Notes under the pieces: model-generated
What the model saw: the letters and a program-made list of their open reading frames with translations, nothing else
What the model was told of the DNA's origin: nothing
Database searches by the model: none
Shown: positions 27,436 through 50,298 of the stretch, piece by piece
Layout of the letters: every line of letters starts with the position of its first letter
Numbering within the stretch: the stretch's first letter is position 1
Made by a program: the position numbers and the translations under genes
Source: Cubamyces lactineus
Lineage: Eukaryota; Basidiomycota; Agaricomycetes; Polyporales; Polyporaceae
Length of the DNA stretch: 64,000 nucleotides
NCBI GenBank assembly: GCA_022376465.1
Contig: JACDTU010000021.1
Location: 124,001 to 188,000 of the forward strand
Direction: 5' to 3'

Positions 27436-27444
27436 GATATTCAC
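27436..27444. repeat. Target-site duplication GATATTCAC, left copy
   Basis: A nine-base direct repeat of 50290-50298, abutting TAGTCT at 27445. The match continues three bases (TAG), so the duplication could be read as 9 to 12 bp. Nine is preferred because it makes the element end in TAGTCT/AGACTA. Confidence 0.7.
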
Positions 27445-27610
27445 TAGTCTGCTACGAAATCGAGGGGTCGTAGGGGAGTAGACTCGTACCCAGTCGGTAG
27501 AACGCACGTGGAGAGAGCGGAGAACAAAAGGCGACTGCGTTCTACCGACTGGGCAAACTGGGCGCGCGCTTAGGGGGGGGTACCCGTGTGAAAATGGACT
27601 TGGGAAATGC
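27445..27610. repeat. Left terminal inverted repeat region with hairpins
   Basis: It begins TAGTCT. It contains CTACGA/TCGTAG arms (27452-27457 and 27467-27472). An 18-bp perfect stem follows (27489-27506 with 27536-27553) around a 29-nt loop. Next come CAAACTGGGCGCGCGCTTAG, a run of eight G and TACCCGTGTGAAAATG. The right end has the same blocks inverted, with different stem bases. Confidence 0.8.
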
Positions 27611-27753
27611 AAGAGTCGTCTCACTGGCAATGTGTACAGTGCAGGTGGCTCGCAGCTCCCTCCATCTAGCTACGGTCACTTTGTGAGGCCCTCTGACTGC
27701 TCGTGCATCTTATTCATCACTCCCATGATACATTAATACAAGACAACGTCCTC

Positions 27754-30700
27754 CTACGTCTGATTACCCTGTCCATGGCCCGCAGGAAAGCCCGGCACAA
27801 TAGCATCCTGGCCCCCCGAGTGCGCACCGCTAGTGCTGTGAGGGTATACGCCTGGAGACATTGGAGGCGAGTATGCGCCCGACGATGGGCCCGGAACGTG
27901 CGTGATAGCCGGCTGCCATTGCTGGCCATATGCGTAAGGGTTGTTGGCAAAGTTCGACGGTGGGGGGGCGGGTGCCGGCGCGCGGCGATTTGTGGCGGGT
28001 GTGGGCGTGCCCGGTTGTTGCGAGTGGCCATAGTAAGGTGTACGCGGTCGTACAGCGGCCGCGGAATATGCATGCGTGTGTCCGGGGCTCCACCCTGGGT
28101 ACGGTTGCCACAGTAGGGGAGGTGTGGGCGAGGTATGGTGGTAATAGGGCGGCATGTGATGCACTGGCGTCGAAAACGGCGCCAATGCTGATATATGGCG
28201 CTGCGGTGCATTGGGCGTTGAAGGAACTGAGGGAAATGAGGCGGGAGTGGACGCGTGAGGAGCTGTGGGTGGCATCCACATTGGGGATGGGGTGTGAGAC
28301 GGGTCTAGGTGTCCCTGCCGGGTGAATGCCATTGGAGTTGGCAGCGGCGGCGGCGGCGGCGGCGGTAGGTGCATTGAAGCCGCCGCGGGGAATGCATGTG
28401 GGGGCTGCTGGCTCGCATTAGCTACTCACCACTGTAGATAGGAAGCTAATGCTACTCACCCGCATCTCTGCGTCGCAGGCATTGCCAGCTACTCCAAGTT
28501 CAAGCCGCGCTCGTTTGGCGGCCGGCTCGACGAGTCCTTCCGATGTGGCGGGACGGGCACGACTCGGAACTCCAGAGCTCACGTTGATGGATGCGCTGTT
28601 CGACGACCCTTGTTCTGTGCCTGCAGTCTCTAGTCTGGGTTGTACGCCGGCGGATTTCTGAGCAGATCCCGCAGACTTCTTGATAGGCCGATGGACGATC
28701 TGGAGAGAGGTGACCAAGTCGCACAGTTCATTGCCGTACCGTTCCCACCAAATCCATGTGTCCTTGAGAAGCGTAGTGACCTGGGCTCGAGTGAGAGGCC
28801 CGTGGCTTGTGAGAGTGGTGATGGTCGCAACGTCCAAGATCGCGGAAGTGTCTAGCTGAGTATTCTGATGGTCTCGTAGGCGTACATCTTTCCGCCACTC
28901 ATAGAGCGAGGACTGTGCGTTGTAGTCAGGTTTTCCGCGCGCTCGCATGCGTGGTTTCGAGTTGCTGGACAGTGATGTTGGGCGGATGCGGTCGAAGACT
29001 GACGGGTCGCAGATGTCGCAGCAAGAGATTCCGGGAGATAACACTATCAGCCATAAATAAGTTCAGGTATAATGGTGAATTAAGCTCTGGCCCACGAACG
29101 TTGAACTGAACTCTCAAACGCCGCTGCCCAAATTGAGCGTCGGCATTTGCGCGTCTGCACAAACACGAGCAGACCTTCGTCCTCTACCTCCACGTCTAGA
29201 CTTGGCTCGGTTCCCTCAGTTGGCACAGTGTCTTCGGTCTTTGAGGATGAGCCACGGTTAAGGCCGTGATGGTATGCGTAATCTTTAGGTAATACCCCTT
29301 TGCGTGCTCGCCCTGCTTGTACACCACCTCGCCCTGCACGGGGTTTAGCCTTGCTGCCTTGCTCCCGCGCATGCCGTTCTGGCACTTGAGCCATCTGTCG
29401 AAGATCCATTGAATAAGCTGATCGTTCGACAAGCAGCACCGCTAGTCCCTGGCGACCTGCGGAGCGTGCAGCTCGACCCGCCCTCTGGACAAAGTTGGAC
29501 AGAGTCTTTGGCAGCTTCCATTGAACGACGAGGTCGACGTCTGAGACGTTACAACCCTGTGTGCAGCACAAGACGTGAGCGCGACGCTGGATGAAACTCA
29601 GTCAGAAGTCATACCATTCCGGCAGCATCGGTGCATACAAGCACACGGATTACTTCATCCGTCTGTGTACTGGCTGGATCAGTTTGGATGGACCCGGGGT
29701 TGTTACGGAAGGCTGCCATGGCACGATGGCGGTAATCGTGGCACATTGTGGCGTTATAAGGTCGGACGAGTTCCTGCGAAGCCAGAGAAGGACATCGCTC
29801 TGCAAGCAGCGCGGACAGGTGGTCGACGATTTCATTGCCAGTTAGGATGTTGTCGACGTAAAGATATGTTTTAGGAATGTCAGAAGCGCGAGTCACTTCG
29901 GGAGGTATGACAAAGTTGAGATCGGCGTATGTGTTCTGAGGATGCTGGATAGCCCGGACAGCGATCGTGACATTAGGTCGGTCATTCCCAACGTTCACAA
30001 AGCGGCTGCCGTGTTTGGGAAAGTGAAGGACGCGATGCAAATCGCGACGTACACGGGCAGTCAGTGTGGCCGTCACAGCAATGACAGGCATACCGCGCGG
30101 AAGGAACGCTCGAATCACTCCGAGACTGTTGTACTTCTTGCGGAACCCTGCACCCCAATGAGATACACAATGGGCTTCGTCTATGATGAGCGAGAGCACT
30201 TGCTTTGCAAACGCAGGTTTACGGAGCACCCGGTTGACGAACATCGGTGACTGGAGCATCTCTGGAGAGATGAGTACGATCTGGTATGTGCCATCTATGA
30301 GTTCCTGAAGGAGACATAGTCAGCGTCATCGAGAGATCAATAGAAAAGGATATTACCTTGACTACTTCGTCTGTACATGTGCTTGTGGCGCTATTTATTG
30401 CGACCGCTCTCAACCCAAAGTCAGTCTTGAATGTCTCTACCTGCAAAGTTTGTTAGACAGATGCCTTCCTCGAGCGGGTGCTGTCGAGGATGAGCGAAGG
30501 AGCGCAGGGAACTCGGATCTACCATTTCGTCTTCCAGAGCTAGTAATGGACAGACCATGATGGATGTCTTCCCTCGGCTGGAAGCCCACACATGTGGACC
30601 GGCCGCGACCGCGGTCTTTCCTGCACCGGTGGGGGCTTGGATGATCATGTCTACTCCCTCGAGCTGCGCTCGAACACCTTCGAGTTGGAAGAATCGGGGT

Positions 30701-30858
30701 TCATTTTTCCATTTGAACCTCTCTTGCATGAGCGTGGATAGTTGAGCTATCTCGGTATCAGAGAGCCGAGTTTCTCGCTGAGCATGGCGCTTCCGAGCCC
30801 GCGGGATCGTAGTAGCCCAGCGGGGTTGTGAGGTGGGCGAAGGATGGCGAGGAGGCAT
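27754..30858 (-). CDS. RecQ-type DNA helicase of the DUF6589-linked element
   Basis: Six reverse exons join in frame: 30858-30523, 30440-30357, 30304-29615, 29556-29100, 29043-28460, 28407-27754, for 934 residues. ATG 30858 is the first in the frame. Helicase motifs in order: APTGAGKT (Walker A), LIIDEAHCVSHWG (DEAH), AVTATLT (motif III), VLVCTDAAGMGCNVSDVDLV (V), QRAGRAARSAGRQG (VI). A zinc-binding region follows: CRRSIW then CCDICDPS, as in RecQ C-terminal Zn domains. The last 218 codons are Pro/His/Tyr/Ser-rich and look disordered. RecQ enzymes unwind DNA 3' to 5'. It faces away from DUF6589 across 199 bp, so the two probably share a promoter. The fourth donor (GTTCGT) is weak but gives the only in-frame join I found to CCDICDPS. 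Confidence 0.84.
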
Positions 30859-31057: not shown

Positions 31058-33496
31058 ATGAGCCTCTTACAACCTGAACAGCTCTATGACGATGTCGACC
31101 TACCAGACATACTCCAGGATGACCTTCCACCTTCGGATCCACCCCTTCCATCCTTGCTTGACACCCTGAACTCAGAGTCCCTCTACAGGATCTCGAGTCC
31201 TCTTCCCGCCCTGACGAGCTCACCTGTGGCTTTACCTGCGGTGTTTCCTGAGCGTGAAGCTCATCCGTCTCAGTACAGTACGGATCACGTCTTCGACACC
31301 TCGCCATGCCGCAATGCTACAGATGCCCGCCGCAAAGCCTGGAAACGTCGCCGCCGTCAGGCAGCCATGCAGAAAATCACTCAGCCAGAAGGCCAAGACC
31401 TAGATGAAGATATTGTAACCGTAGATGAAGACAACGACGAAGATGCGAAGCGACGTACCCTGTGCAATATACTCGACCATCTTCATGAGGCGAACATGAC
31501 TTTCGGCGACCTCGTCCTCTTTGTATCAGATCCGGCCAACAAGAGGGGTAACGAACGCTGGAATGGCTTCTTCTCAGTACCGGGGAGGGTACAGACGGTG
31601 CTTGACTTCTGGGCCTCATCAGGGAACAGCCCAACTGGACAACAGGCTGTCCGCGAGTGGGCAACTAACTTCGTCAAGCTTCTCGTCGGTCGTGAAGCGC
31701 ATGCAGCAACACGCTCCAGGATGTTCTATTCCCATGATAAAGAAGTTAATGTGAACTTCTTGTCCGACTTCAGCATGGAGCGCGTCCGACAGCGCCTCCT
31801 CGAGCTGTGCCCCACTAGCTTGGACATATTTCGGGCGTTCAGTTTGACTGCCCGGCAGAAGAAACAGCCAACCGCATCAACTGAGAAACGGAAGGACATC
31901 GTCAGTAGATACTCCATACGTGGATGTTGATTATATGCTTACCGCTCATGCTGCCCTTGTTGTAGCTCAGCACAACACAGGCTCTAATCGGCCTCACCGC
32001 ACGTAGCCAGAAGAACTCATACGTACAGCAAGTCCTTGGACTCTACGCCTATGCATCGGGAGCTCAGCGCCAGGTGATGAGCGTGCTCTCACATCTTGGG
32101 ATCACATGCAGCTATCCAACACTTACTGGGCGAGCGTCGGCACGGGCGTCGAGACGTGAGGCTCCTAGTACTACTGTGACCAAGGATCAACAGAGTCTCG
32201 AACTACCCGAGGAACTGGGCGAAGACGAGACAACGAGCTCAGAACCAGAGCCCGAGAGAGATGAGACCGAGCCGGCACCCACTATCGTGGTGTTAGGTTC
32301 TGTTACAGACGGAACCACTCGCGGCCAGCCACAAGTTGTCGGTGAGCGCGCAAATCTCACTAAGATCACTACCAACGCTCACATATCACTGTACAGATAC
32401 CACACATCCTCGAGCACATCGCACTGAGCAAACAGACCCTCAACCGGCCCAATCAGAGTCGGGTTTGAAACGCACACTAAGCCGTGCACTTGGACTTCTG
32501 AAGCTGCTGTCTGACTCTTCCATGTCCGTCGCTCAGCAGAAGGCCCAGACACACCTTCTTGCCAATGTCTATGACAATATCAACATGCTGTTCAAGATTG
32601 CCGAGCAGATCCTTGGACGGAAGGACACGCAACAGAACGGGACCTGTGCTACTGCGTTTGAGCTATTTGGAGCGTCATTGGACTACATGCGCACCTCAGA
32701 CGTTGTAGACTCCCTCGCACATGCTCCGCCACTCACCCTCGACAATGTCCTCTTGTCTCGTACTGAGAACGACCTACTCACGCAGTGCCTGGAACACAGC
32801 GTCCTTCGTATCATCGTGGGCTTTGGCGGGGAGCGGTTTTCGCGCTTCCGCAAAGAGGTCGACGCAACCCTGCCGGTTACTGAAGATCGCATACCACTGC
32901 ACAAGACAGCTATCTATCCACTACCAGCCATGAACATAGATGAATCAAGTACGACCGGCAATGCTGACGTACTCACCGAGATATTCAAGTCGCTCAAGGT
33001 CGATATGGACTCACCGGACTTCACCCGCTATGTCAAAATCATCTCCGGCGACCAGCTCTCGATCTCCCGTATACGCTCATTGGTCCAGAATCGCGCTGGA
33101 CATGAGACACTTGGTCAGTCCTTTCTGTGGGCTCTATGTATGCCTGGCCTCTTTCACTACAAAATGGCGGCTACTCACGGAATCCTGGAGTCGCACTATG
33201 GATCCCAGAGCCAGCGTGACCCTGGCTCTCTGGCATTTCACAACACCGTCCTTGATCGCAAGCCGATCGTGCTCACCTCGCTGCCCCCTTTCCGCACGAC
33301 ACGCGACCTCATCTTTGTATCGCTATACTCCCGCGTTCTCCACTGTCTGCTCTTGGTGTCGGAAGCCTCTAGCCTTGACGACTACGCCGCATCTGTGACG
33401 TTCCCGGAGCTCTGCGCCCACGCGAAGGCTGTAGTCTCCCAGTACGCAAGTGCTAGTGCTGCCGAGACGCTGAGGGAGGAGAGAGAAGAAGAGCGG

Positions 33497-33499
33497 TGA
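33497..33499 (+). other. In-frame TGA in DUF6589 exon 3
   Basis: The reading frame continues with family sequence on both sides (REEREEER before; GDTVFEGAILFMRDALVLRE after). This looks like a nonsense change rather than the end of the gene. Confidence 0.7.
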
Positions 33500-33907
33500 G
33501 CGTGGGACGCGGCGATGCTCGACGTTGACGAAGACGCCCCGGATGATACTGTGCCGGACTTTGTTCCGCAAAAGGGAGATACCGTCTTCGAGGGCGCCAT
33601 TCTTTTCATGCGCGATGCACTCGTTCTCCGTGAATTCACCGACGCGGTCAAGGTTGGGGATTCTGGACGCGTAGTGAATGTGCTCAAGCTTTGGACGCTG
33701 AGCTTCCGTGGGAGCGGTCGGGTGAAGTACGCGTATGAGATGTTGCATCTCATCCACAATCTCACGCACGTCTGGCCCGCACCCCTCCGGTACGGTCCCC
33801 ATATTCCTTGCGCATACTAGGTACTGAACTTGACTCGTGACATAGCAAGATTATACTTCAAAACTGGCTTGTAAATCCAACAGGGAAGCCGGACGCCTGG
33901 GTCGAGG

Positions 33908-33912
33908 TCGAC
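33908..33912. repeat. Copia target-site duplication TCGAC, left
   Basis: A five-base copy matching 48731-48735 on the far side of the copia element. Confidence 0.92.
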
Positions 33913-34210
33913 TGTCGAACTAGACGCGCATTAGGCGCTGACTAATAGCAGGCTAGTAAGCGGGAATGGACACGAGGCTACCAGTCTCCTGGAGAAAGTT
34001 CCGGATACTGTGGCTGAGGTACTACATAGTATGACATCGTACTATACAGTATTACATCATAGCCTCCGTGTACATGTATATAAGGCTGCTCTGTAGGAGC
34101 AGTACAACAAGTCGCTCTTAACCTTCAATCCCTACGTGTGCCTCTATTCAGAGCTCTACAGGTAAGTGAGCTAGTGGGGCTTTCCACTGCGTAACAAGCC
34201 CTGCTCAACA
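33913..34210 (+). repeat. Copia 5' LTR
   Basis: Starts TGTCGAAC and ends GCTCAACA. TATA box TATATAA at 34077-34083. A strong splice donor CAG/GTAAGT lies at 34159-34167. Confidence 0.95.
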
Positions 34211-34224
34211 GGTTATGAGCCCTG
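34211..34224 (+). promoter_or_regulatory. Copia primer-binding site, initiator tRNA-Met half-molecule type
   Basis: GGTTATGAGCCCTG directly follows the LTR. Its complement, CAGGGCTCATAACC, is the anticodon arm (CAU) of the initiator tRNA-Met as I know it from yeast. The primer would be a cut tRNA fragment, as known for Drosophila copia, rather than the tRNA 3' end. Confidence 0.7.
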
Positions 34225-34521
34225 GTTGATGCTCGGATCTGCGCCTGGCAAGGCTGCGATCCTGATGCTCCCAGCTCAGCTCAGCTGGTTGATGCCAAAG
34301 CTTGTGCCTGGCAAGGCCTTGCTTTTGTGCGCCCAGCAATACCTGGACGTCGCCCTAGTGGGGCTAGACGTTGCGGCCCTTAGTGTGCACCATGTAGGCT
34401 GCACCTATGCCGCTAGAGCTTAGGGAGTGTTCAGCATTGCTGCCTTTGGCGCCGTTATGGCTGCCTTGTTGTGCGCATGGACAAATGCTGACATTCTGTC
34501 TCTACAGACTCCCTTAACGCC

Positions 34522-37159
34522 ATGTCCAACTCGCTCACTCAGCTCGTTCCTGTCCTTGACGGTTCGAACTACCCTCAGTGGGTCGACCTGATGAAGGCTT
34601 ACCTTCAGCAGCAGGAGGTTTGGCTCGTCGTTGAGCCTCCTGAGGGCATCGCTGCCCCTACCCTTGAGGAAGACGGTAGAAACCGGAGCGAAGTCGTCGC
34701 CTGGAATCAGATGATGATGAAGACGATGGGCTGTATTCGCCTCCGGCTCAGCCCCGAGGTGAGTAGCCTTGTGAAAGACAAGGCGACTCCCAAGGAGCTG
34801 TGGAGCGCCCTTAAGAGCCTCTACGGGACTACCTCGTCGATGGGTGCCTATAGTTTCTATAAGGCCGCCACCAGTGTGCGCATCCCGTCGAATGAGCATC
34901 CCGGCCCTGCGATCGCTAAGATCCAAGGGAACCTTGACCAACTGAGCGGTGCGGGGATTAACATCCCTATGAACCTGCGTGCCTTGATGATCTTGGACGC
35001 AGCGCCGCCGCGGTATGAGACCGCAATTCAGCTCTGTCTTAATGACAATGAGCTAGCGGACCTGACCACTTCTGATGCTCGGGAAGCACTTGTGGCTTCC
35101 TGGGAAGTGTCGGTGACAAAGGGTAACCGCAAAGTTGGCGAGGCAAAGAAGCTCAGTGCTGTCAAGCGCAAGGGCAAAGATCCTGCCTTCAAGCAGCAGC
35201 AGCAGCAACACCGCAACGGTGACTCGCAGCAGCAGCAGCAGAAGGGCAAGGGCAAAGCTCGGCGAGGGAAGCGTAAGGGTCAGAAGTCTTCAGACCATGA
35301 CCACGCCCACCTTGCTTCCACCGCGGCCATCTCTGACGGTCCTACCACGACTGTCGATCCGCGTGCGCTTCTGCGCAAGCCTGTCCGGGTTAACGGCCCT
35401 GAGGGTGAGTCAAAGTATCCTACCCTCAAGCGTGCCTTCAACCTTGCTCGCGACCTCGACATCACGCCCAGTCCTGAGCGCATTCGCACTTTGGAAAGCG
35501 TAATTAAGGTCAGCGACAAGGGGGAGGGTTCTAGCCAGATCGTCGAGATCGACTCGGACAGCGCGGACAGTCACTCGTCGAAGCGGACTCGCCTTACCTT
35601 GGCTGAGCGCATTGACTGGACTGAAAGGGATGACGATGCGGAATCCACTGTCTCCTTCGGCTACGAAGATGACGACGTGGACATGGAGATCGCCAATGCG
35701 GCTGGTCTCTATGAGCAGTATGACGAGCAAGTGCGGTCAGTACTTCTCACTCTGCCCTACAGACAACACGCTGATGCGCTTCTTTCAGCAGCAACATGTA
35801 ACAGCGTGGATGGATCTGCGGTAGTTAGATTGCGGAATCCTGTCTGTATTTCGTCTGAACAATGTAGTCATTCTGTTTCATTCGCGGAATGTGCTCGTTG
35901 CAAGGGCAAGAGTAAGGCTGACCAAAATCCTCAATGGATGCTTGACTCGGGCGCATCTCTCCATTTCACCAATGATATGGATGATTACATTGAGTATGCG
36001 CCGCTAAGTGAAGACATTGTTGTTCATACTGCGAATGGCGTTGCCTTTGTCAAGGGATCTGGGACTGTTCTTCTGAACTGTCCGTTACCATCTGGCGGTC
36101 ACACGACAGTACGCATCGCACCTGTCTACTTTATGCCAGATTTATCTATCCGCCTTCTTTCTATGGGAGAATTCCTTCAGAAAGGAATGCGAGTGAGCGG
36201 AAATGCTGAGAGAGTCAGCATCTTGCAAAGATCAGGAAAGCCATTCCTGGTTTTTCATCCACGCACTCCCAATGACACTGTCTACTGTGTCGAGTCGCTT
36301 CACGCGAGGGATGCGTTGTATATCTTTCCAACAGTCTGTAACCTTGATTACCAGACCATGCACCGTCGCTTGGGTCATCCTTCCAAGGATGTGCTAAGGC
36401 ATGCAAGGGAACACACTGCAGATTTCCCTACCATTGAGTTCCCTAAGGAGGAACCTCTATGCCGTGGATGCGCAGAAGGGAAGATGCCCTTACGGTCCTT
36501 CCCGCCATCCGTTCGACGCGCTTCTCGTCCTTTTGAGATTATTCACTCGGACTTGAAGTCATTCCCCATCGACTCCTACCACAAATACAAGTATGCGATC
36601 ATGTTTCTCGATGATCATACATCGTATGCTTGGGCTGTGTGTCTGCGCTCCAAGGATGCTGCGCTCACAGCGACAAAACACTTCCTTGCCAACGTCGAGA
36701 ATCAATTCAAGACAAAGGTACAGAAGTGGATGTCTGACGGTGGAGGAGAGTACAAGTCCAAAGCATTTGATGCATTGCTTAAGGACAAAGGCATAGAGAT
36801 ACTCCAGAGTGTTCCGCACCAGCCTCAGCAGAATGGCCGTGCTGAACGACTCATGCGAACTCTTTCAGACAAGGCTGAAGCTATGCGCTTTGACGCCTGT
36901 CTACCACAATCATGGTGGGAATTTGCGATTGAGCACGCTGTTCATGTGTATAACCGCACGCCTTTACGCCGCTTGAAGTGGCGAACCCCCTATGAGGCGT
37001 TGAATGGTGAAGCTCCATCTATCAAACACTTACGTGTGTTTGGGTGTGGTGCCTATGTGCACTTACCGCCTGCAGTACGAACCAATAAGCTCTCGCCTAA
37101 GTCAGAACTTATGGTGTACATTGGGGTCGCCCCCGGTAGTCATGGCTTTCGGTTCATGC
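34522..37159 (+). pseudogene. Copia polyprotein, first part: Gag, protease, integrase
   Basis: ATG 34522 opens a frame that runs without stop up to the chromovirus. Gag-like N-domain: VLDGSNYPQWVDLMKAYLQQ, as in the copia/UBN2 group. Then a Gln/Lys/Arg-rich nucleic-acid-binding stretch (QQQQQHRNG, KGKARRGKRKGQK) with no CCHC knuckle that I can find. Protease D-S-G-A: WMLDSGASLHFTND. The GAG-pre-integrase zinc region (H..H..C..C) ends LCRGCAEGKM. Integrase D,D,E: IIHSDLKSFP, WMSDGGGEYKSK, QNGRAERLMRTL. It breaks off after GSHGFRFM, where the nested element begins. Absence of a CCHC motif is seen in several copia lineages. Confidence 0.92.
37155..37159. repeat. Chromovirus target-site duplication CATGC, left
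   Basis: Matches 46090-46094 across the nested element; joining at one copy restores the copia frame (TTC ATG CGG TCA). Confidence 0.95.
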
Positions 37160-37699
37160 TGTTACGAATGTACAATAGGTATTGCGACGTCTCGACGAAC
37201 TGGTAACGGTTTCTAGTACTTACTCTGTACGATACAAGTATGGTAGGCTCTGGGACTCCAGCTACGATTGTATATGGCGGATTCTATGGAACAGTCTCGT
37301 ATTATCTAGGACTTTCCATGCACAGTTACTTCTGCACAGTGCACAGTCGCTTCCGCGCAGTGCACAGCGCTTCTGCACAGTACACAGCAGCACTGCCACA
37401 GTGTTACTAGGTTCGACTAGCGCTGACTACTATGCACCAGAAAGTCCTTGTATACGCTAGAACGTTCCGTCTACAGGCTGGTATACATGTATATAAGAGG
37501 CGACGCCATAGAGCGACCCTCAGCTTTCAGTCTCTTCGCGAAATACGACTTTGATTGCTCGTTAACTCGCTTTCAACTGCAAATACTACTACGCGCTTAT
37601 CTTCGACAAGCTAGGGCTAGTAGCTGAATAGATATAAGCTCTCTATTCATTGACGTCTTAAGGCTTGATAGTTTAAGAGTCACGCTCGAAAGCGTAACA
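37160..37699 (+). repeat. Chromovirus 5' LTR
   Basis: Starts TGTTACGA and ends CGTAACA. Contains a cluster of CACAGTGCACAG-like repeats at about 37320-37390, TATA box TATATAA at 37490-37496, and the probable RNA 5' end near 37521. Confidence 0.95.
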
Positions 37700-40502: not shown

Positions 40503-42661
40503 GCAGGCAAGCAGACACGACGCCTGACTTGCCCAAGGAACTGCATGTAACTATTGTAACCAATACAGAGCGGAGACGCAGTGCTCTGCTGATACCCGGT
40601 TACATGCAGGTTCAGGACAAAGCCGTCGAAATCAAGGGGCTCATCGACACTGGTGCGGATGCCGTGATCGTCAATAAAAAGATTGTGGACAAGTACAACC
40701 TTCCGACAGTCAGACTACCGAAGACTCTGACTTTCCGGAACGCGGACGATAGCGTTAATAGCATGGGAACCATTACCCATCGGGTGGAGGGGACATTTAA
40801 TCTACACGGGAAGAAGCTCCCAACAAATTGGTATGTGGCCGACATTGGGCGGGACGATGTCTTATTCGGCATGCCATGGATCCGCAAGTACAATCCTAAT
40901 ATCGACTGGGAAAGTGGACGCATTACTTTCAAGTCGGATATTATCAAGAAGCAGCAGCAGATCCATAAATACCAATGCGAGCACGACCCACCCGAAGGGA
41001 TGCTGTGGAATTTCCCAGTAAAACCTCTAAATCAAGATCTGGTCGTATCGTTCGTACGTGCTATACCGGACGAGGACGACGCAGACCCAGACTCCGAAAG
41101 GCTTACATTTAATCCTTCGAGGGCCATCGAGCTATGGTACCGCAAGAAGAAAATCCGAAAGATTAATAAGTCTACGGAGATCGCTATAGCAGCGAAGAAA
41201 GACCAGAAGGAGAAGACCTTGGACGAAATCCTACCTGATTTTGTAAAGGACTATCGACAGGTCTTTGAGAAAAAGGCAGCAAGTAGATTTCCGCCCTCGA
41301 GACCATGGGACCATGCTATCGAATTCAAGAAGGACTTCGACCATCATACCAAGGGGTCTTGGAGGAAAATCTACCCTCTGACCTATACGGAACGTATAGA
41401 ACTCGACAAATTCATTGCGGAGAACCTCGAGAAGGGCTACATTCGAAAATCCAAGTCTCCACTAGCCTCGCCGTTTTTCTTTGTCACCAAGAAGGATGGG
41501 AGTCTTCGACCTGTTCAAGACTACAGGGCTCTTAACGAGGGGACTATCAAAAACGCATATCCCTTGCCGCTCATCAGCGACATCATTGACCGGCTGAAAG
41601 GGGCCACAATATTCACCAAGCTCGACGTGCGAGCAGGGTACAATAATGTTCGCATCAAAGAGGGTGATGAGTGGAAAGCTGCGTTTATAACACCCAGCGG
41701 ATTGTTCGAACCGACAGTCATGTTTTTTGGTTTGTGCAACGCACCGGCCACATTCCAGAACATGATGAACGATCTCTTCCGGGACATGCTTCAGGAAGGA
41801 TGGATGGTCATTTACATGGACGACATCCTGATATTCTCAGACAATGTCGAGGACCATCACAAACGCACGCGAAGAGCTTTACAGCGACTTCAAGACAGTG
41901 ATCTATTCCTCAAGGCGGAAAAATGCGAATTCGACAGACAAGAAGTCGAATTTCTAGGATCAATAATCCGGCCAGGGGTAGTCGCTATGGATCCAGTAAA
42001 GCTCAAGGCAATTATCGAGTGGGAACCACCGAAAACAGTCAAGCAGGTTCAGGCATTCCTAGGGTTCGGTAATTTCTACCGACGGTTCATTCGGGATTAT
42101 TCAAAGATAGTCCGACCCCTCACGGAATTAACCAAGAAGGACCAGCCTTTTCTGTGGACCTCTGATTGTCAGAAAGCATTCAATACACTCAAGAAGCGGT
42201 TTACTGAAGAACCGATCCTACAAATCCCGGATCCGGAGAAACCATTTCAGATTGAGTGCGATGCTTCTAAGGTCGCAACAGGTGCTGTACTACGACAGCA
42301 AGGAGAGGACGGACTATGGCATCCTTGTGCCTATTTGTCCAAGTCCTTTACTCCTGCGGAACGGAACTATCAGATTTATGATAGAGAATTGTTAGCCATT
42401 GTTCGAGCTCTCGAAGCATGGCGACATTTTTTGCAGGGTTCCCCACACCCTACAGAAATCCTATCAGATCACAAAAATCTGACCTACTTCCGTACGGCGC
42501 AGAAGTTAAATCGCAGACAGGCGCGATGGCATTTATTCCTCTCGGAGTTCAACATCGTAATCAAGCACCAGCCCGGAAAATCCCTCACTCAAGCAGACGC
42601 CCTTTCTCGGAGATCAGGGCATGACGGGGGGAAAATGACAACAAGGACGTTGTATTACTAG
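40499..42661 (+). CDS. Chromovirus Pol: protease, reverse transcriptase, RNase H
   Basis: In the -1 frame relative to gag, open through TAG at 42659-42661, with no ATG near its start, so it is expected as a Gag-Pol fusion. Protease D-T-G: IKGLIDTGADAVIVNKK. RT: RPVQDYRALNEGTIKNAYPL, KLDVRAGYNNVRI, YMDDILIFSDNVEDHHK, FLGFGNFYRRFI. RNase H: IECDASKVATGAVLRQQ, YDRELLAIVRALEAWRHFL, LSDHKNLTYF, then QADALSRR at the end. All expected catalytic aspartates are visible. Confidence 0.93.
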   Translation, partial: LGRQADTTPDLPKELHVTIVTNTERRRSALLIPGYMQVQDKAVEIKGLIDTGADAVIVNKKIVDKYNLPTVRLPKTLTFRNADDSVNSMGTITHRVEGTFNLHGKKLPTNWYVADIGRDDVLFGMPWIRKYNPNIDWESGRITFKSDIIKKQQQIHKYQCEHDPPEGMLWNFPVKPLNQDLVVSFVRAIPDEDDADPDSERLTFNPSRAIELWYRKKKIRKINKSTEIAIAAKKDQKEKTLDEILPDFVKDYRQVFEKKAASRFPPSRPWDHAIEFKKDFDHHTKGSWRKIYPLTYTERIELDKFIAENLEKGYIRKSKSPLASPFFFVTKKDGSLRPVQDYRALNEGTIKNAYPLPLISDIIDRLKGATIFTKLDVRAGYNNVRIKEGDEWKAAFITPSGLFEPTVMFFGLCNAPATFQNMMNDLFRDMLQEGWMVIYMDDILIFSDNVEDHHKRTRRALQRLQDSDLFLKAEKCEFDRQEVEFLGSIIRPGVVAMDPVKLKAIIEWEPPKTVKQVQAFLGFGNFYRRFIRDYSKIVRPLTELTKKDQPFLWTSDCQKAFNTLKKRFTEEPILQIPDPEKPFQIECDASKVATGAVLRQQGEDGLWHPCAYLSKSFTPAERNYQIYDRELLAIVRALEAWRHFLQGSPHPTEILSDHKNLTYFRTAQKLNRRQARWHLFLSEFNIVIKHQPGKSLTQADALSRRSGHDGGKMTTRTLYY

Positions 42662-44151
42662 GGCCAGAACTTTTTGCCAAAGCTGTCAACGTTGAGCTAC
42701 AAGAGCGCATCCGTGATAGCAAGCTACGGGACAACTCGGTAGTAGAGTACATTACTCTAAAAGGAAAGGCTACCAAACGCCCAGAGTTCGGCAAACCAGA
42801 AGATTGGTCCGACGACGACGGAATACTCCTGTACAAGAACAGAGTATACGTTCCACCAGATAATCAATTGTATCGTGATATAGTCAAGATGCATCACGAC
42901 GCACCGATTATGGGACACCCAGGAGTCCAGAAAACCTATGATCTGGTTAAACGGGAATATATGTGGCCAGGCATGCGGAAATTCATCGCGCAATATGTCA
43001 AAGGTTGCGCCGCTTGCCAAACAAGCAAGGTCAATACGCATCCCATTAAACCAGGCTTAATTCCCATTCAACACAGTGGGGATACTAGGCCTTTCCGGAC
43101 AATTACCATGGATTATATCACCGATCTACCAGAATCGGATGGTTTTAATGCCGTCCAAGTGGTAGTCGACCATGATGTATCCAAAGCAGCGGTATTTTCC
43201 CCTTGCACCAAGAATATTACGGCAGAAGGAGCCATGGATATTCTGCAAAGGGATGTGTATCGCAGATTCGGACTACCTGCGAAGGTCATCTCGGATCGAG
43301 GGCCGCAATTCATATCCAAGGCATTCAAAGAACTACACAATAGCCTCGGAATTGAAACGGCACTCAGCACGGCCTACCATCCTCAGACAGATGGGGAAAC
43401 GGAGCGAGTAAATCAAGAACTCGACTTAGCACTTCGGCTCTACTGTGCTAACAATCCGGAGAACTGGGCCAAACTGCTGCCTCAATTCGAATTCGCGCAC
43501 AATCAGCGGACACACTCTGTCACGGGAAAATCCCCGTTTGAGCTACTCTACGGGTTTCAGCCAGAGGCCGTTGGGACAGTCCGAACCACCCCAAAACATC
43601 CAAGTACGGAGCAGAGGCTTCAAAGTCTTCAGGAAGCCAGGGAGAATACAATAGCGGCGCATGCGCAGGCCGCCGCAGCTATGTCAAGAAGGCTCCCCGC
43701 TGCGCAAGTTCCGCTGAAGCTCGGAGACAAGGTTCTTCTCGATACAAAGAACCTCAGGCTTCCATATGTCTCCAGGAAGTTGATTCCAAAACGAGTGGGA
43801 CCGTTCACCATCGTCAAGGTCTTGGGACCGGTTACATTTAAGTTAAAGCTTCCGGAGAAATGGAAGATACACCCCGTCTTCCACGCAGCGCTACTTACCC
43901 CGTACCACACAACTAAGGAGCACGGACCAGACTATGTCCGACCTCCACCGATTCCCACTCCTGAATCAACTGAAGGAGAGGAATGGGAGGTAGAAGCAAT
44001 TCTGAGCCACCGCACTAGAGGTACCCAAAAGCAGTATCTAGTGGCTTGGAAGGGCTGGCCCGCATCGGAAAATTCTTGGGAACCAGAAAGACATCTCAAG
44101 AACGCGCAGTCGATCTTGCGCAACTATAAGAAGAGGCACAAGTTGTCGTGA
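42625..44151 (+). CDS. Chromovirus Pol: integrase with GPF module and chromodomain
   Basis: A frame shifted -1 from the RT frame, open from 42625 (after TGA 42622-42624) to TGA 44149-44151. No gap in family sequence: VVLLGPELFAKAV follows directly from the RT frame's end. Integrase Zn finger H-H-C-C: HHDAPIMGHPG ... GCAACQTSK. Catalytic D,D,E: ITMDYITDLP, VISDRGPQFISK, HPQTDGETERVNQ. GPF module: PKRVGPFTIVKVLGPVTFKL. Chromodomain near the C-terminus: WEVEAILSHRTRG, YLVAWKGWPASENSWEPE. The chromodomain reads histone marks and steers integration in this family. Confidence 0.92.
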   Translation, partial: RGENDNKDVVLLGPELFAKAVNVELQERIRDSKLRDNSVVEYITLKGKATKRPEFGKPEDWSDDDGILLYKNRVYVPPDNQLYRDIVKMHHDAPIMGHPGVQKTYDLVKREYMWPGMRKFIAQYVKGCAACQTSKVNTHPIKPGLIPIQHSGDTRPFRTITMDYITDLPESDGFNAVQVVVDHDVSKAAVFSPCTKNITAEGAMDILQRDVYRRFGLPAKVISDRGPQFISKAFKELHNSLGIETALSTAYHPQTDGETERVNQELDLALRLYCANNPENWAKLLPQFEFAHNQRTHSVTGKSPFELLYGFQPEAVGTVRTTPKHPSTEQRLQSLQEARENTIAAHAQAAAAMSRRLPAAQVPLKLGDKVLLDTKNLRLPYVSRKLIPKRVGPFTIVKVLGPVTFKLKLPEKWKIHPVFHAALLTPYHTTKEHGPDYVRPPPIPTPESTEGEEWEVEAILSHRTRGTQKQYLVAWKGWPASENSWEPERHLKNAQSILRNYKKRHKLS

Positions 44152-44218
44152 AGGACTCAACCCACTCCTCACCCAATATCTCTTCGAATTTTCTGAACAA
44201 ATTTCTCCTCTATTCACT

Positions 44219-45514
44219 ATGGTCTACACCAACACTCGTCTTACTGGTCGTCGTTTCTCTGAGGCGACTCGTCGCAACATTCCCCGTCCCCCCAACTTCA
44301 TTAGGGCACGGCGCACTGTTTTCTACAACCATCTTCCCCGACACACCGTCTCGTGCAACGACGAAGGCACCCTCGCCGATCGTGTCGGCTGGGTCATCGT
44401 GCACCCCGACCTCTACAGCCATGTCGAGGCCCGTATTGCCCATCTTCCTGAGGTCAAGGACCTCATCGACGTCTACCGCGCTCTCGCCAGGGCCGCCCCC
44501 TCTTACTCTGTTCTCATCAAACACAACCAGAGAACGTCGGCGCCCAAGTCCGAGAAGAAGAAGGTAGTTCAAGTTGCGAGCGAGGCCTATCAGGCAGTGG
44601 TTCAAGCGGCAGAGAAAGTAATTTCTATGCTCGCTAACCCTCAGGTCGCGGGAGCACTCTCGGACCTGATGCCCCTGCGTAACCAACACGGTACGCATAG
44701 TTGGGGGCATGTCTTTTGGCCGCAACGCCTCGATGACTACCCGCAAGCTATCGAGGTCGATTCTTCGGATGAGGAAGAAGACGAGGACGAGGTACGCTCG
44801 GATGGTGGATGGTCCATTCCCTCGACTGACCCTTGGAAGGTTTCCACTCCTGATCCTGAGGAGGAAGCCATCAAATGGGGTCCGACTTCAGTTGAGGGGT
44901 CGACCCCGACCCTATCCTCCTCAAGTTCTGACTCCTCCTATTCGGAAGTCGAGTCTTTCGACTTACTCCCTGAGCTCGAACAACTAGAGCTTAGCACGAT
45001 CGACGAGCTCTCGGAAGAGGAGTTCCACGAAGCCCTGAAAGTCGCAGTAAGGGCCCCTTCCCCGCCTCCTCCTCCCCCGACTACGATCACCAAGCACGTC
45101 GAGGAACCCCATGGACGATGCGGTTTCTTTCGTGGAACCGGAGAAGATCGGTTCGGATACATCAACTCTCGAGGCGACATTTTCATGGTCCCCAACAGTT
45201 CCTTCGGCATCTCTGACGTTCGGATCATGGTCGCATACCATCTCCGATGGCCGGAAGCTTCAGTCAGGACCACCCAAGCCGCCTCCCTACTCATCGACGA
45301 TGTCATCGCCCGGCGTGGAAATTACCCCGCCTTCAAGGTCGACGCTGAACGCATCGCGACTACTTATCGCGAGGCTTTAGGCATGTCGGCGGCAGAGACT
45401 GCTCAATGGGACTGCATTCGAGCAGTAGGTAGCGATGCGGAGCTCGTCCAGATCTCCCTGGATGTCTTCCGTCCTGAGGTCGTCGAGAGAAACAATGCTA
45501 TCGTTCACCTCTAA
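44219..45514 (+). CDS. Chromovirus extra ORF downstream of pol, unknown function
   Basis: ATG 44219 to TAA 45512-45514, 431 residues, 65 bp after the pol stop, in the place where envelope genes sit in some retroelements. I recognise no family. It starts basic (TGRRFSEATRRNIPRPPNF), has a helical middle (VEARIAHLPEVKDLIDVYRA), an acidic Ser-rich region (SSDEEEDEDEV, TLSSSSSDSSYSEVES), a Pro run and a compact C-terminal part (GRCGFFRGTGEDRFGYINSR). No signal peptide or membrane segment is visible, so it is not an obvious envelope. It ends 35 bp before the 3' LTR. It could be a captured host gene. Confidence 0.65.
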   Translation: MVYTNTRLTGRRFSEATRRNIPRPPNFIRARRTVFYNHLPRHTVSCNDEGTLADRVGWVIVHPDLYSHVEARIAHLPEVKDLIDVYRALARAAPSYSVLIKHNQRTSAPKSEKKKVVQVASEAYQAVVQAAEKVISMLANPQVAGALSDLMPLRNQHGTHSWGHVFWPQRLDDYPQAIEVDSSDEEEDEDEVRSDGGWSIPSTDPWKVSTPDPEEEAIKWGPTSVEGSTPTLSSSSSDSSYSEVESFDLLPELEQLELSTIDELSEEEFHEALKVAVRAPSPPPPPPTTITKHVEEPHGRCGFFRGTGEDRFGYINSRGDIFMVPNSSFGISDVRIMVAYHLRWPEASVRTTQAASLLIDDVIARRGNYPAFKVDAERIATTYREALGMSAAETAQWDCIRAVGSDAELVQISLDVFRPEVVERNNAIVHL

Positions 45515-45532
45515 AGGTCGAGGACGACCTTC

Positions 45533-45549
45533 AGCGGAGGGGGAGCTGA
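45533..45549 (+). promoter_or_regulatory. Chromovirus polypurine tract
   Basis: AGCGGAGGGGGAGCTGA directly before the 3' LTR, the usual plus-strand primer site. Confidence 0.75.
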
Positions 45550-46089
45550 TGTTACGAATGTACAATAGGTATTGCGACGTCTCGACGAACTGGTAACGGT
45601 TTCTAGTACTTACTCTGTACGATACAAGTATGGTAGGCTCTGGGACTCCAGCTACGATTGTATATGGCGGATTCTATGGAACAGTCTCGTATTATCTAGG
45701 ACTTTCCATGCACAGTTACTTCTGCACAGTGCACAGTCGCTTCCGCGCAGTGCACAGCGCTTCTGCACAGTACACAGCAGCACTGCCACAGTGTTACTAG
45801 GTTCGACTAGCGCTGACTACTATGCACCAGAAAGTCCTTGTATACGCTAGAACGTTCCGTCTACAGGCTGGTATACATGTATATAAGAGGCGACGCCATA
45901 GAGCGACCCTCAGCTTTCAGTCTCTTCGCGAAATACGACTTTGATTGCTCGTTAACTCGCTTTCAACTGCAAATACTACTACGCGCTTATCTTCGACAAG
46001 CTAGGGCTAGTAGCTGAATAGATATAAGCTCTCTATTCATTGACGTCTTAAGGCTTGATAGTTTAAGAGTCACGCTCGAAAGCGTAACA
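45550..46089 (+). repeat. Chromovirus 3' LTR
   Basis: 540 bp, apparently identical to 37160-37699, followed by the TSD CATGC at 46090-46094. Confidence 0.95.
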
Positions 46090-46094
46090 CATGC

Positions 46095-48373
46095 GGTCAC
46101 CCAATAACGTTATATTCACGTCAGCACATGCATTGTTTGACGAGAATATGTTCCCTAAATGTCCCACCAACCAGCGACGTCGTACCTCTCGAATTGATGA
46201 TCCAGAGGACGAAAACCCATCTGACCATGAACCAACCGTTCCTTCGGGCCCTGATGATGACGATGAGCCACGTCATCCTCCCCACCAACCTCTTGAAAGG
46301 AGACAGGAGCAGGAGCATGACGATGCACCTGAGATGCCACCCCGTGTGCGCACTCCTAGTCCGCCGCCCCGTGTGCCGGAATTGCCGCCTACGCCTCAGA
46401 AGCCTAGGCGTGCAACACGTGAGCGGAAAGTACCAGTTCGCCCAGGCAATGTGTACGGAGAGTCACGGCATCCCGTACAACAGTTCAAGGAGATTGAGAA
46501 GCAGGGGGAGTGGAAAAAGATTGTTGGTGAGCAGTCGGGTCGCTCCCGTGCCACTGGCAAGTCTCGGTCAGAATCTGTTCCCGGCAGTAGTTCTGCACCA
46601 CCCGCTCCAAGCGACATACCTGCTCCATCCGCCTCGGGAGAAGCGTCTGGCAGCGCACCTGATAATGGCTCAGGTCAATCTTCAGACGAGGTCGAAGATG
46701 CCCTGCGCGCCATGCATGATGAACTGGTCCTGGCACAACTATGCCGGGAAGGGGGAGTAGGACTTATCAACTATCTACTCATGAAAGCAGTGCCACCAGT
46801 TGATGAGAATCTGCCCGATACGTCCAACGTTAGAGAGTGGACTTACCGTGACATCGCTCGCCTACCACCGGCTGAGCAGAAGGAATGGAAGGCTGCTTGC
46901 CGTGAGGAGCTAGAGGCACTCCGACGGCGAAAAGTCTTTGAGTTGGTTGATCGCCCTAAAGGGCGCAAGGTCATAAAGAACCAATGGGTATTCGACGTCA
47001 AATCTGACGGTCGAAAGAAGGCCAGGCTTGTAGCCAAGGGTTTCTCCCAGGTCGAAGGTGTCGACTACGACCAGATCTTCTCACCAGTTGTTCGCTTCGA
47101 GACTGTGCGGCTTTTGCTTGCACTCTCAGCACTTGAAGACTGGTACATCACTGGACTCGACGTCCGTAATGCTTACCTTTACGGAAAGCTTGACGAGGAG
47201 ATCTACATGGAACAACCCGAAGGCTTTGCAGCCAAAGGCCAGGAGCACAAAGTCCTCCGACTACTACGTGCTCTATATGGACTTAAGCAAGCAGGTCTTG
47301 CATGGTGGCGCACCCTGAATGAGTCCATGAAAGAGCTAGGCTTCAAACGCTTAGTCTCTGATGCCGGTATCTTCGTTTTTAGGGACGAGAACGGCGGCAT
47401 GGTCATCGTCATTGTGTATGTCGATGACGCCCTCTTCTGTGGACGGAACAAGGCACTCGTCAATAAGATGAAGGCCAAGTTCATGGAGAAGTGGGAATGC
47501 AGAGACCTTGGCGAAGTCAAGGAATTCCTGCGTATGCGCATCCAGCGTAGAGGTCGAACGATCCATATTGATCAGTGCGCCTACCTGGAGAAAGTGCTTC
47601 TGCGATGCGGTATGCAAAACGCGAAGCCTGCGCCTACTCCACTGCCGGCAGGGTATCACCCAGAGCCGAATAGTCAACCAGTGGATCCCATTCTCCGCTC
47701 CAGGTTCCAAACCGTCATTGGGTCCTTACTGTATATCATGCTAGGCACTCGACCTGACATTGCTTTTGCCGTGACCAAACTATCACAGTTTGCTGCGAAC
47801 CCTTCGCAAGAGCACCTCACTAAAGCGCTGTATATCTGTCGCTATCTTCTTGGGACCAGGTCTTACTCTTTGGTCTACGATGGTGCTAGCGGTCTCGGCC
47901 TGTGCGCATGTACAGACTCTGATTGGGGGTCTGACCCATTCACTCGACGGTCACAAACAGGATATTTCCTGAAGTTGGCTGGAGGGATTTTCAGCTGGCA
48001 ATCTCGTGCTCAGAAGACAGTTGCACACTCGTCAACTGAAGCCGAGTACATGGCAATCAGCGATTGTTCTCGCCAAGTAGTCTGGATCCGCAACCTTATG
48101 AGCGAGATCGGCTACGAGCTAGCTCCCATCCCAATTGCGGGAGACAGCCAGGGATCGCTCTTTATGAGCTCGAACCCTGTGACTGAGAGCCGGTCGAAAC
48201 ACATCGACATTCGCTACCATGCTATTCGAGAGTACATCGAGAATAAGCAGGTCGAAGTGTTCTTTGTTGACGGCTCGGATAATCCAGCTGACCTCTTCAC
48301 CAAGAACCTGGGACATGTCAAGTTCACCAAGTTCAGAGGGCAACTTGGCCTTGAGTTCTATGACTCGGCCTAA
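46095..48373 (+). pseudogene. Copia polyprotein, second part: reverse transcriptase and RNase H
   Basis: Continues the copia frame after the nested insert (RSPNNVIFTSAHALFDE) to TAA 48371-48373. An acidic Pro-rich spacer leads to the copia RT: EWKAACREELEALRRRKVFE, KARLVAKGFSQVEGVDYDQI, LDVRNAYLYGKLDEEIYMEQ, LYGLKQAGLAWW, YVDDALF. RNase H: CTDSDWGSDPFTRRSQTGY, SSTEAEYMAISD, DNPADLFTKNLG. Intact in itself but separated from its Gag and integrase by about 8.9 kb. Confidence 0.93.
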
Positions 48374-48420
48374 ATCCGCTACATTCAGCCTGCGCGCTCG
48401 CGCACACTACCGTGGTGCTT

Positions 48421-48432
48421 AGCGAGGGGGAG
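48421..48432 (+). promoter_or_regulatory. Copia polypurine tract
   Basis: AGCGAGGGGGAG directly before the 3' LTR. Confidence 0.72.
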
Positions 48433-48730
48433 TGTCGAACTAGACGCGCATTAGGCGCTGACTAATAGCAGGCTAGTAAGCGGGAATGGACACGAGGCTA
48501 CCAGTCTCCTGGAGAAAGTTCCGGATACTGTGGCTGAGGTACTACATAGTATGACATCGTACTATACAGTATTACATCATAGCCTCCGTGTACATGTATA
48601 TAAGGCTGCTCTGTAGGAGCAGTACAACAAGTCGCTCTTAACCTTCAATCCCTACGTGTGCCTCTATTCAGAGCTCTACAGGTAAGTGAGCTAGTGGGGC
48701 TTTCCACTGCGTAACAAGCCCTGCTCAACA
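48433..48730 (+). repeat. Copia 3' LTR
   Basis: 298 bp, apparently identical to 33913-34210, followed by TSD TCGAC at 48731-48735. Confidence 0.95.
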
Positions 48731-49487
48731 TCGACCTCATGCAAGAACACTTGAACTTCTGGATCAAGGTAAGTCATGTCCTTGGATCCCAGGAAACCTG
48801 CCGCCTGATCTCACGTGAACCTCCTAGACTATCTACAAAGCTCACGGCAGCAACGCGTCGTGGGAGTGGCTCACTATGATCTCCCCATGCGTAGATATCT
48901 TGCGGCGCCTTGTAACTCAGATCAATGCAGACCTCGGGGCGCGCCAAGGCGTCAAACACACAAGTCCAGATCTCGAGAGGGATATCACACATCTCATGGG
49001 TTCGTTGCAGGAACATGGTGTCTACGAAGCCCATCCCGGACGGCGTGTCGACTCAGACAGAGTCCCCGTCCCCAACGTTGTTGCGCTTGGATGTGCGAAC
49101 CTCACAGGACCGTTGGCCGACTTCAATGTTCACCTCGCACGCTTACAGCGACGATGCCATGCGAAGCCGCTCGGCGGCAACCCATATGTCAGCAGGGAGG
49201 TTACAAGCAGCACCGACCTCGGTACCTCAAGCTTGCAGCCCTCGCAGTTCAACCCACCATCGGCGCCCAGCTCCTCAGCACAGGCAGATGTAACCGAGGT
49301 CGCCATGGAGGCCACCACATCTCATGACATCGCAGACGAAGAGGAGTACTGGCGCGAGGTGGACGCACTAGCATGGGACGGCCTAGAGGATTGCGATAGC
49401 AGCTCTGGCAGGGCGCTTTTCACACTGGAAACGGCGGGCGATGTCGCACTAGATATGGATGACCTAGAGACAGAGTTCTCACTATAA
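48731..49487 (+). pseudogene. DUF6589 protein gene, 3' part
   Basis: Exon end 48731-48768 (LMQEHLNFWIK) and exon 48828-49487 complete the gene broken at 33912. Blocks: TIYKAHGSNASWEWLTMISP, CVDILRRLVTQINADLGARQ, GVKHTSPDLERDITHLMGSL. The C-terminus is Ser/Pro-rich and ends in an acidic tail (LDMDDLETEFSL). All five exons joined, with one TSD copy, give 1,124 codons including the internal TGA and the final stop. The stop lies 62 bp before the right inverted repeat. Confidence 0.86.
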
Positions 49488-49548
49488 TATCTGACTGCTA
49501 ATTCCGAGTTCATACACCACCTCCTCCCCCGTCTACCCCACTGCGGAG

Positions 49549-50289
49549 GGCAATTCCTCTAAGTACATTTTCACACGGGTACCCCCCTAAGCGCGCGCCC
49601 AGTTTGCCCAGCCTCTCCGGATGGCAGGAAGACTGACTTTGAATCCCCCATCACCGGAGAGGCTGGGGACGAGCCTAGTAGGGGAGGCTGAGGAAAGTGC
49701 TTGCGGATCAACGTGCCGAGTGATGGCCGATGTGCCGCGGTGGCTTCACGGGGCGCTAATGCATCGTCCACAACGCCGTCTTACTGTACTTCATGTGAAG
49801 CAAAGCGGTACTGCGTTGCGCACACACAAAACTGGACATGCAGCAAAGCTCTCCGTGCGCTCGTTCAACGTTGGACTGCGTTTTACTCATCTTTAACTGC
49901 TCAAATTCGCAGGTGGCGAGGGCCCGTGGCTCTGCTGCATGATCACAGGCGAGATACATGGGCATGGCCTGCAAAATTAGATTGTCGAGGGGTTGGGGGG
50001 GTTCAGAACTAATCTGGTCTTGCTTTGCATAGATCTACATACAGGTCTGGTATGAGCAGCTGTGGCGACGAGCACGATAGAGTGTACTTATAGAGTCCAC
50101 AAGTCCAAAGCCCCAGAGACTGAGAGCCTCTCAGCCACCGCGGCACCTCGGCCATCACTCGGCACGTTGATCCGCAAGCACTTTCCTCAGCCTCCCCTAC
50201 GACCCCTCGATTTCGTAGCAGACGTCCGTGGCGCTCGTCCCTCCCTCCCCTCAATAGAGCGCCTCGGTACGTCTGCCTAGGGGAGACTA
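49549..50289. repeat. Right terminal inverted repeat region of the RecQ-DUF6589 element
   Basis: Inverted copy of the left end, in order: the CATTTTCACACGGGTACC block, AAGCGCGCGCCCAGTTTG, and a 14-bp stem (49607-49620 with 49654-49667). A roughly 0.5-kb foldback insert (49678-50200) follows, then the 32-bp block matching 27447-27478. A further nested hairpin leads to the terminal AGACTA. Confidence 0.78.
49678..50200. repeat. Foldback/MITE-like insert with 68-bp arms
   Basis: Arms 49678-49745 and 50133-50200 are inverted complements with one mismatch. They begin GTAGGGGAGGCTGAGG. TA stands on both outer sides of GGGGAGG...CCTCCCC, so a TA target is possible. The 387-bp middle has no gene. 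The left end of the element lacks this insert. Confidence 0.8.
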
Positions 50290-50298
50290 GATATTCAC
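50290..50298. repeat. Target-site duplication GATATTCAC, right copy
   Basis: Direct repeat of 27436-27444, directly after AGACTA. Host sequence continues TAGAACCTC. Confidence 0.7.

Follow-up and report, generated by a model that had tools for sequence, protein, structure and literature searches.

Introduction

AcademH is reportedly a lineage of the Academ DNA transposons, recognized by Kojima in 2020 (Mob DNA 11:15). According to the passages on these elements in PMC10045372, AcademH elements make target duplications of 9 or 10 bp and AcademX elements duplications of 3-4 bp, a difference tied there to carrying a helicase or a nuclease, and in the corresponding part of PMC10799480 AcademH is given as low-copy in Basidiomycota, Ascomycota and Mucoromycota. 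RecQ helicases are also carried by KolobokH, a fungal DDE lineage, and by a red-algal Kolobok (passages in PMC9587614), so that carrying a helicase does not by itself define Academ. Here, a window of 64,000 nucleotides from Cubamyces lactineus (Polyporaceae; contig JACDTU010000021.1, positions 124,001 to 188,000) was analysed, in which a RecQ-family helicase gene lies beside a gene of DUF6589 (PF20231), listed in Pfam as 'of unknown function' and frequent in mushroom-forming fungi. An earlier note on this DNA had proposed that the two genes form one DNA transposon. Our results indicate, with a probability of roughly 0.8, that the locus is one broken copy of a family of cut-and-paste DNA transposons with a DUF6589 transposase and a RecQ helicase, most likely of the AcademH kind.

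Results and discussion

DUF6589 and RecQ genes occur together between shared ends

Pfam domains and RecQ-family matches in a PDB sequence search confirmed that the RecQ gene (reverse strand) and the DUF6589 gene (forward strand) are divergent in the window, as the earlier note had read them. The solved relatives of the middle piece of the RecQ gene were WRN, RecQ, RECQ1, RECQ5 and BLM, and the database protein P0160 (730 amino acids) was 94% identical to the RecQ query typed from the window. Searches of the C. lactineus genome, whose counts are lower bounds, gave 20 PF20231 matches that fell into 10 DUF6589 loci. A relative of the window RecQ was found at all 10 of these loci, at a distance of up to about 3 kb at seven and of about 11 kb at three (C11, C15 and one C43 copy), and all 10 matches of the window RecQ query sat at DUF6589 loci, with none elsewhere in this genome. 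The gene pair is divergent in C11, C12, C14 (the copy of the window) and C39, and convergent in C1, C2, C8, C15 and both C43 copies.

At six of the seven loci searched, which span the two opposite gene arrangements, both ends were found together with a 9-bp target duplication. The ends of the window lineage are defined as TAG[A/G]CTCG. The C11 copy (C11:477700-510409, duplication GCTCGTACT) agrees with the window in its ends, TAGACTCGTACCCAG and CTGGGGACGAGCCTA, and the copies C12:2416821-2424352 (7,532 bp end to end, duplication TGGCACGAT) and C39:1772487-1780626 (8,140 bp, duplication GAGCAGACG) were the best-scoring pairs of a script searching for duplications of 8, 9 or 10 bp beside matching termini. 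In the window and C11 the top-ranked pairs of this script were internal palindromes; the chosen ends, which ranked second and seventh, were accepted because they agree among the copies and with the uninserted site described below. A second lineage, with reversed gene order and TAGTCT ends, is represented by C1:453502-459427 (duplication GGAGCCCAT) and C43:702505-708871 (duplication CGCTAAACC), whose ends came from scripts that demanded TA at the left end (C43) or at both ends (C43, C1). At C8, the script requiring TA at both ends gave no convincing ends. Taken together, the ends, the 9-bp duplications and the pairing at 10/10 loci bear out the proposal that the two genes make up a single DNA transposon.

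The pattern TAGRCTCGTNCCCAG, taken from the ends of C11, C12 and C14, occurred eight times in 36.3 Mb (those six ends and two others), and its reversed control occurred once; the C39 ends deviate from the pattern. The core of the subterminal inverted block (Table 1), CCGTGTGAAAA, or its complement also lies close to either end in C12 and C39. Single matches to the pattern of the terminal inverted repeat (TIR) at C39:1606429 and C43:469053, which had no CCGTGTGAAAA in the 2 kb fetched and no convincing partner end, were taken as chance.

Two further features of the copies were observed. The C43 sequence holds two DUF6589/RecQ copies with equal match scores, C43:683209-696090 and 702505-708871, which are inverted and about 6 kb apart, the genes of the former lying about 9 kb farther from each other. 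Compared with C14 and C11, C12 has its two types of end (TAGACTCG with CCCAGTCGG, TAGGCTCG with CCCAGCC) the other way round with respect to the genes.

The element is nested in a small non-autonomous element

The earlier note had drawn the unit as about 8 kb long, flanked by GATATTCAC and ending in TAGTCT...AGACTA, with inverted blocks inside. The blocks are both present, namely a perfect 32-bp block (27447-27478 / 50192-50223) and an inner block (27549-27578 / 49582-49611), and GATATTCAC does stand at 27436 and 50290, with no third copy in the window (two or more copies appeared in 2 of 100 dinucleotide shuffles). However, this duplication, the TAGTCT...AGACTA ends and the 32-bp block are parts of a non-autonomous element of about 0.63 kb that hosts the RecQ/DUF6589 element. 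In the window, the small element breaks after ...GTAGGGGAG at 27478 and picks up again with GTAGGGGAG at 49678, and the insertion site is uninserted in 10/10 other fetched loci of the small element. These results place the RecQ/DUF6589 element at 27479-49677, with the ends TAGACTCGTACCCAG...CTGGGGACGAGCCTA and, from the terminus script and the comparison of copies, its own 9-bp target duplication GTAGGGGAG on both sides (Table 1). Taken literally, the two genes also occur apart from the repeats on which the earlier note relied, the ends of C11, C12 and C39 being different from the 32-bp block, because that block is no part of the RecQ/DUF6589 element.

It could be argued that the outer boundaries hold all the same and that the composite moves as a whole, given that GATATTCAC flanks everything and the outer ends are complete. 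This is very improbable, since the outer piece is a free-standing element whose site is empty of the insertion elsewhere, and C11, C12 and C39 show inner-type ends with duplications of their own; as the normal form of the family, the composite is refuted by these loci.

Table 1. Features of the RecQ/DUF6589 element and its surroundings in the window
Feature	Position	Strand	Basis
Left target duplication GATATTCAC of the small outer element	27436..27444	+	Repeat search; 9-bp duplications at 7/10 other loci
Left piece of the small non-autonomous element (TAGTCTGCTACGAAATCG...)	27445..27478	+	Own-genome copies
Left target duplication GTAGGGGAG of the RecQ/DUF6589 element	27470..27478	+	Uninserted in 10/10 other loci
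Left end of the RecQ/DUF6589 element: TIR TAGACTCGTA followed by hairpin arms 27489-27506 / 27536-27553	27479..27578	+	Fold z -3.9
Subterminal inverted block common to both ends (...GGTACCCGTGTGAAAATGGACTT)	27549..27610	+	Inverted-repeat search
RecQ-family helicase gene, several exons	27754..30858 (outer coordinates from the earlier note)	-	Pfam DEAD and Helicase_C
DUF6589 gene before Copia, both presumed active-site Asp	31058..33912	+	PF20231, E 1e-74 and 1.3e-32
Copia long terminal repeat (LTR) element in the DUF6589 coding region	33913..48730	+	LTRs 33913-34210 / 48433-48730; 5-bp duplication TCGAC
Gypsy LTR element inside the Copia element	37157..46089	+	LTRs 37157-37699 / 45547-46089, 99.8% identical
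DUF6589 gene after Copia, presumed catalytic Glu (...QEHLNFW)	48731..49487	+	PF20231, E 1.4e-10
Subterminal inverted block, right copy	49561..49611	-	Inverted-repeat search
Right end of the RecQ/DUF6589 element: TIR ...ACGAGCCTA, own different hairpin (arms CCCAGCCTCTCCGG / CCGGAGAGGCTGGG)	49578..49677	-	Fold z -2.65
Right target duplication GTAGGGGAG	49678..49686	+	Terminus script, uninserted loci
Right piece of the small non-autonomous element	49678..50289	+	49678-50292 100% identical to C23:482775-483389
Right target duplication GATATTCAC of the small element	50290..50298	+	Repeat search

As it stands, the window copy has been stretched to 22.2 kb by a Copia element that lies within the DUF6589 coding region and in turn contains a Gypsy element. 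Once the Copia element and its duplication are subtracted, about 7.4 kb of native sequence is left; the size of about 8 kb given earlier thus suits the native element and the C12 and C39 copies, but not the unit as it is found. The DUF6589 gene, which had been read as a single gene from 31058 to 49487, is broken by this insertion and carries an in-frame TGA stop at 33497-33499. The window copy is unable to encode a whole transposase, because 14.8 kb of retrotransposon part the presumed catalytic Glu from the two Asp. The LTR regions of the Copia element are 99.0% identical and those of the Gypsy element even more so (Table 1), and both insertions therefore look recent.

Further copies of the small element occur in the same genome, and 10 such loci were fetched. 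Seven of them had both ends and a 9-bp duplication, read by eye (GGGCCTGAC, GGATGGCGT, CTTGTACCC, CCTTCCACC, TCGCGCGCA, AGTAATCAT and ACTTCAATT); L015, L018 and L019 each lack one end. A complete copy has a length of 633 bp. The 14 target duplications have no sequence in common. The ends of C1 and C43 start with TAGTCT like those of the small element, and on the strength of this shared start the convergent lineage, rather than that of the window, may move it. The last 60-70 bp or so of the small element (about 50220-50290) also occur alone at other places, e.g. C39:123425-123492 and C15:476945-477014, which suggests, from the matches, further relatives or relics of its right end.

DUF6589 proteins have a predicted DDE-transposase-like fold

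AlphaFold2 models of two DUF6589 proteins, 21% identical to each other, had pLDDT (predicted local distance difference test) values of 84 and 82. Structure comparison showed that DDE transposases or RAG1 fill the top 23 and the top 21 rows for the two models, and for the second model Z fell from 7.5 to 4.9 at the first protein outside these groups. Foldseek by itself gave weak support for the fold match, and a PDB profile search by sequence returned five matches, none of them meaningful (best E 5.8). In Pfam, the DUF6589 proteins scanned matched DUF6589 and, weakly, RUN, and nothing else. The presumed catalytic residues are conserved among 78 homologues (D296 in 76/78, D455 in 77/78 and E727 in 77/78). 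On these data, DUF6589 is predicted to fold like a DDE transposase that has a helical insert, and its D, D and E are almost invariant; given the predicted fold, the earlier proposal that DUF6589 cuts and joins DNA is most likely right. Among the best fold matches were hAT (Hermes) and the P element, which share a DDE core with a large helical insert and which, to our knowledge, carry no helicase in the element.

Comparison with described transposons

The window family resembles AcademH, as far as that lineage is described in the sources cited above, in its 9-bp duplication (6/7 loci; none at C8), which fits the 9 or 10 bp of AcademH, in the helicase, here of the RecQ family by Pfam and PDB sequence search, in the DDD/E transposase, here by predicted fold and near-invariant residues, and in its low copy number in a basidiomycete host. 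The assignment to AcademH, made on these described features, is most likely correct. A DDE transposon lineage of its own, outside Academ, which gained RecQ separately as KolobokH did, would fit this kind of likeness, which is one of described traits, and would also fit the presence of RecQ in Kolobok elements. We regard it as unlikely, given that the helicase, the duplication length and the low copy number in Basidiomycota all agree with the published statements on AcademH.

The fold matches of the DUF6589 models also included the transposase of ISCth4, which we take to be of the IS256 family. The range of 4- to 10-bp duplications listed for MuDR and IS256 in the relevant passage of PMC10045372 includes 9 bp, and a MuDR/MULE-like transposon that acquired a RecQ gene was therefore considered. 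This origin has next to no chance of being right: no MULE Pfam match with an E value of 0.1 or less was found in four full-length DUF6589 proteins, and the C/DxxH signature (as defined in the part of PMC9587614 on these transposases) is not conserved, no column pair between the second D and the last E exceeding 4/78 or 2/41, on which ground MuDR/MULE was rejected. KolobokH has in its favour the RecQ gene and the fungal host, and is extremely improbable as well. From the sections of PMC9587614 on Kolobok, its duplications are 4-bp TTAA, or 3-5 bp in KolobokP, against 9 bp without a common sequence here, which rules it out, and the RecQ of KolobokH lies downstream of the transposase domain, whereas the genes are divergent in the window lineage. 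The lack of a conserved C/DxxH motif in the DUF6589 homologues speaks against Kolobok too.

Helitrons are not known to have TIRs or target duplications; here TIRs and 9-bp duplications are present, and no Helitron or PIF1 Pfam match was found in the pieces and proteins scanned. Helitrons combine an HUH nuclease with a helicase in the summary of PMC12730594, and this candidate was rejected. The same source, in its entries on duplication length, gives 8 bp with variants of 5, 6 and 7 for hAT, 8 bp for Zisupton and Dileera, and 2-3 bp for Plavaka, so that hAT, Zisupton/KDZ and Plavaka, the last two being fungal DNA transposons like the present one, were each rejected on the 9 bp found here. The hAT and P elements differ further in that DUF6589 lacks a conserved C/DxxH signature and has the Pfam matches given above.

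Paired inverted repeats at the ends of one lineage

In the divergent lineage, an inverted repeat with its base at 11 or 12 lies directly inside the TIR of about 10 bp at all eight ends. Within a copy, the arms at the left end differ from those at the right, e.g. CCCAGTCGGTAGAA and CCCAGCCTCTCCGG in C14, and the sequence also varies from copy to copy. Of the 112 cells given by 14 stem positions and eight ends, 104 were paired; a 5' arm paired at 13.0/14 positions on average with its own 3' arm, and at 9.2/14 with that of another end. Two-sided changes were seen in eight of the nine variable stem columns. In an arm-swap test, 1 in 20,000 arrangements was as good, a figure that is overstated as the eight related ends were treated as independent. 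Folding energies lay below those of dinucleotide shuffles (z -2.65 to -7.41). With 40 mononucleotide shuffles for each end, C39L and C39R scored 9 and 8 for their inverted repeats, below the best shuffle (11 and 9), and the other six ends scored above it. At C12R the best ungapped repeat lay at 20-29, a bulge being needed for pairing from base 11, and C39R took another structure in the 110-nt fold. Similar folds, seen without a shuffle comparison, occur at the relic ends C42:453728 and C25:192774.

In the small element, such a hairpin stands at the right end (z -5.5), and the left end has none. No hairpin was found at the C1 ends, and at most a weak one at the left end of C43 (z -2.2), implying that the hairpins are a trait of one lineage. 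The element most likely belongs to AcademH, a little-studied and already described kind of transposon, with these hairpins as an unusual twist. It is possible that the pairing is kept by conversion between arms, without function. A more far-reaching idea, tentative and on balance doubtful, is that the window lineage marks its ends by DNA shape, the transposase recognizing or needing an extruded hairpin that the carried RecQ opens or closes. Such marking would account for the helicase match at all 10 DUF6589 loci and, if true, would constitute a novel means of end definition in a DDE transposon. If the hairpins matter, the reason for the presence of a RecQ helicase in some DDE transposons becomes directly testable.

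Proposed roles of the two proteins

Because of the predicted fold, the TIRs and the duplications, DUF6589 would bind and cut the element ends and join them, with a stagger of 9 nt, to target DNA. Two roles may be suggested, with less confidence, for RecQ. In Drosophila, the BLM helicase takes part in repairing, by strand annealing, the gap that an excised P element leaves behind (as outlined in PMC8951532). By analogy, RecQ might act once excision has taken place, promoting repair of the donor gap by strand annealing with the sister copy as source, and so secure the donor copy. Alternatively, it might melt the hairpins beside the TIRs during excision. The models suggest that DUF6589 functions as the transposase of RecQ-carrying transposons, in which case the annotation of many 'hypothetical proteins' could be changed to mobile DNA.

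Relatives in other fungi

The C11 DUF6589 query had 413 relatives above the cut-off, and PF20231 was present in all of the best 120 of these 413, whose named host species we take to be mushroom-forming fungi. A query from the C43 lineage had 39 relatives. Co-occurrence was counted from the best 120 of 413 DUF6589 and the best 120 of 1,685 RecQ matches. Among these matches, 41 of 116 other-species contigs listed for RecQ equalled in length a contig listed for DUF6589, with the species agreeing; such length pairs often say little because many contigs are megabases long. For RecQ contigs under 20 kb, 5 of 13 were among those so paired. Adjacent RecQ/DUF6589 locus tags were found for GSI_01525/01526, EVJ58_g10195/10196, EVJ58_g10739/10740, NM688_g6203/6204 and NM688_g6046/6047, and with NM688_g2307/2309, two apart, there were six adjacent or near-adjacent pairs in three species. 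In viral_contigs, 12 stretches fitted the search pattern and tblastn confirmed none of them as relatives. No mention of the name DUF6589 was found in the literature searched.

Other features of the window

The Gypsy element contains an extra open reading frame of 431 amino acids (44219-45514), 3' of the integrase and chromodomain, which had no Pfam match. The insertion of the small element lies between two paralogous open frames, 25814-26383 and 50385-51443, which are 50% identical over 180 aligned positions. The paralogues that the earlier note had placed on either side of the unit are therefore real, but their naming as oxygenases holds in part: the left one had no Pfam match of its own, and the right one matched the 2OG-Fe(II) oxygenase family marginally, at 27.5 bits against a cut-off of 27.

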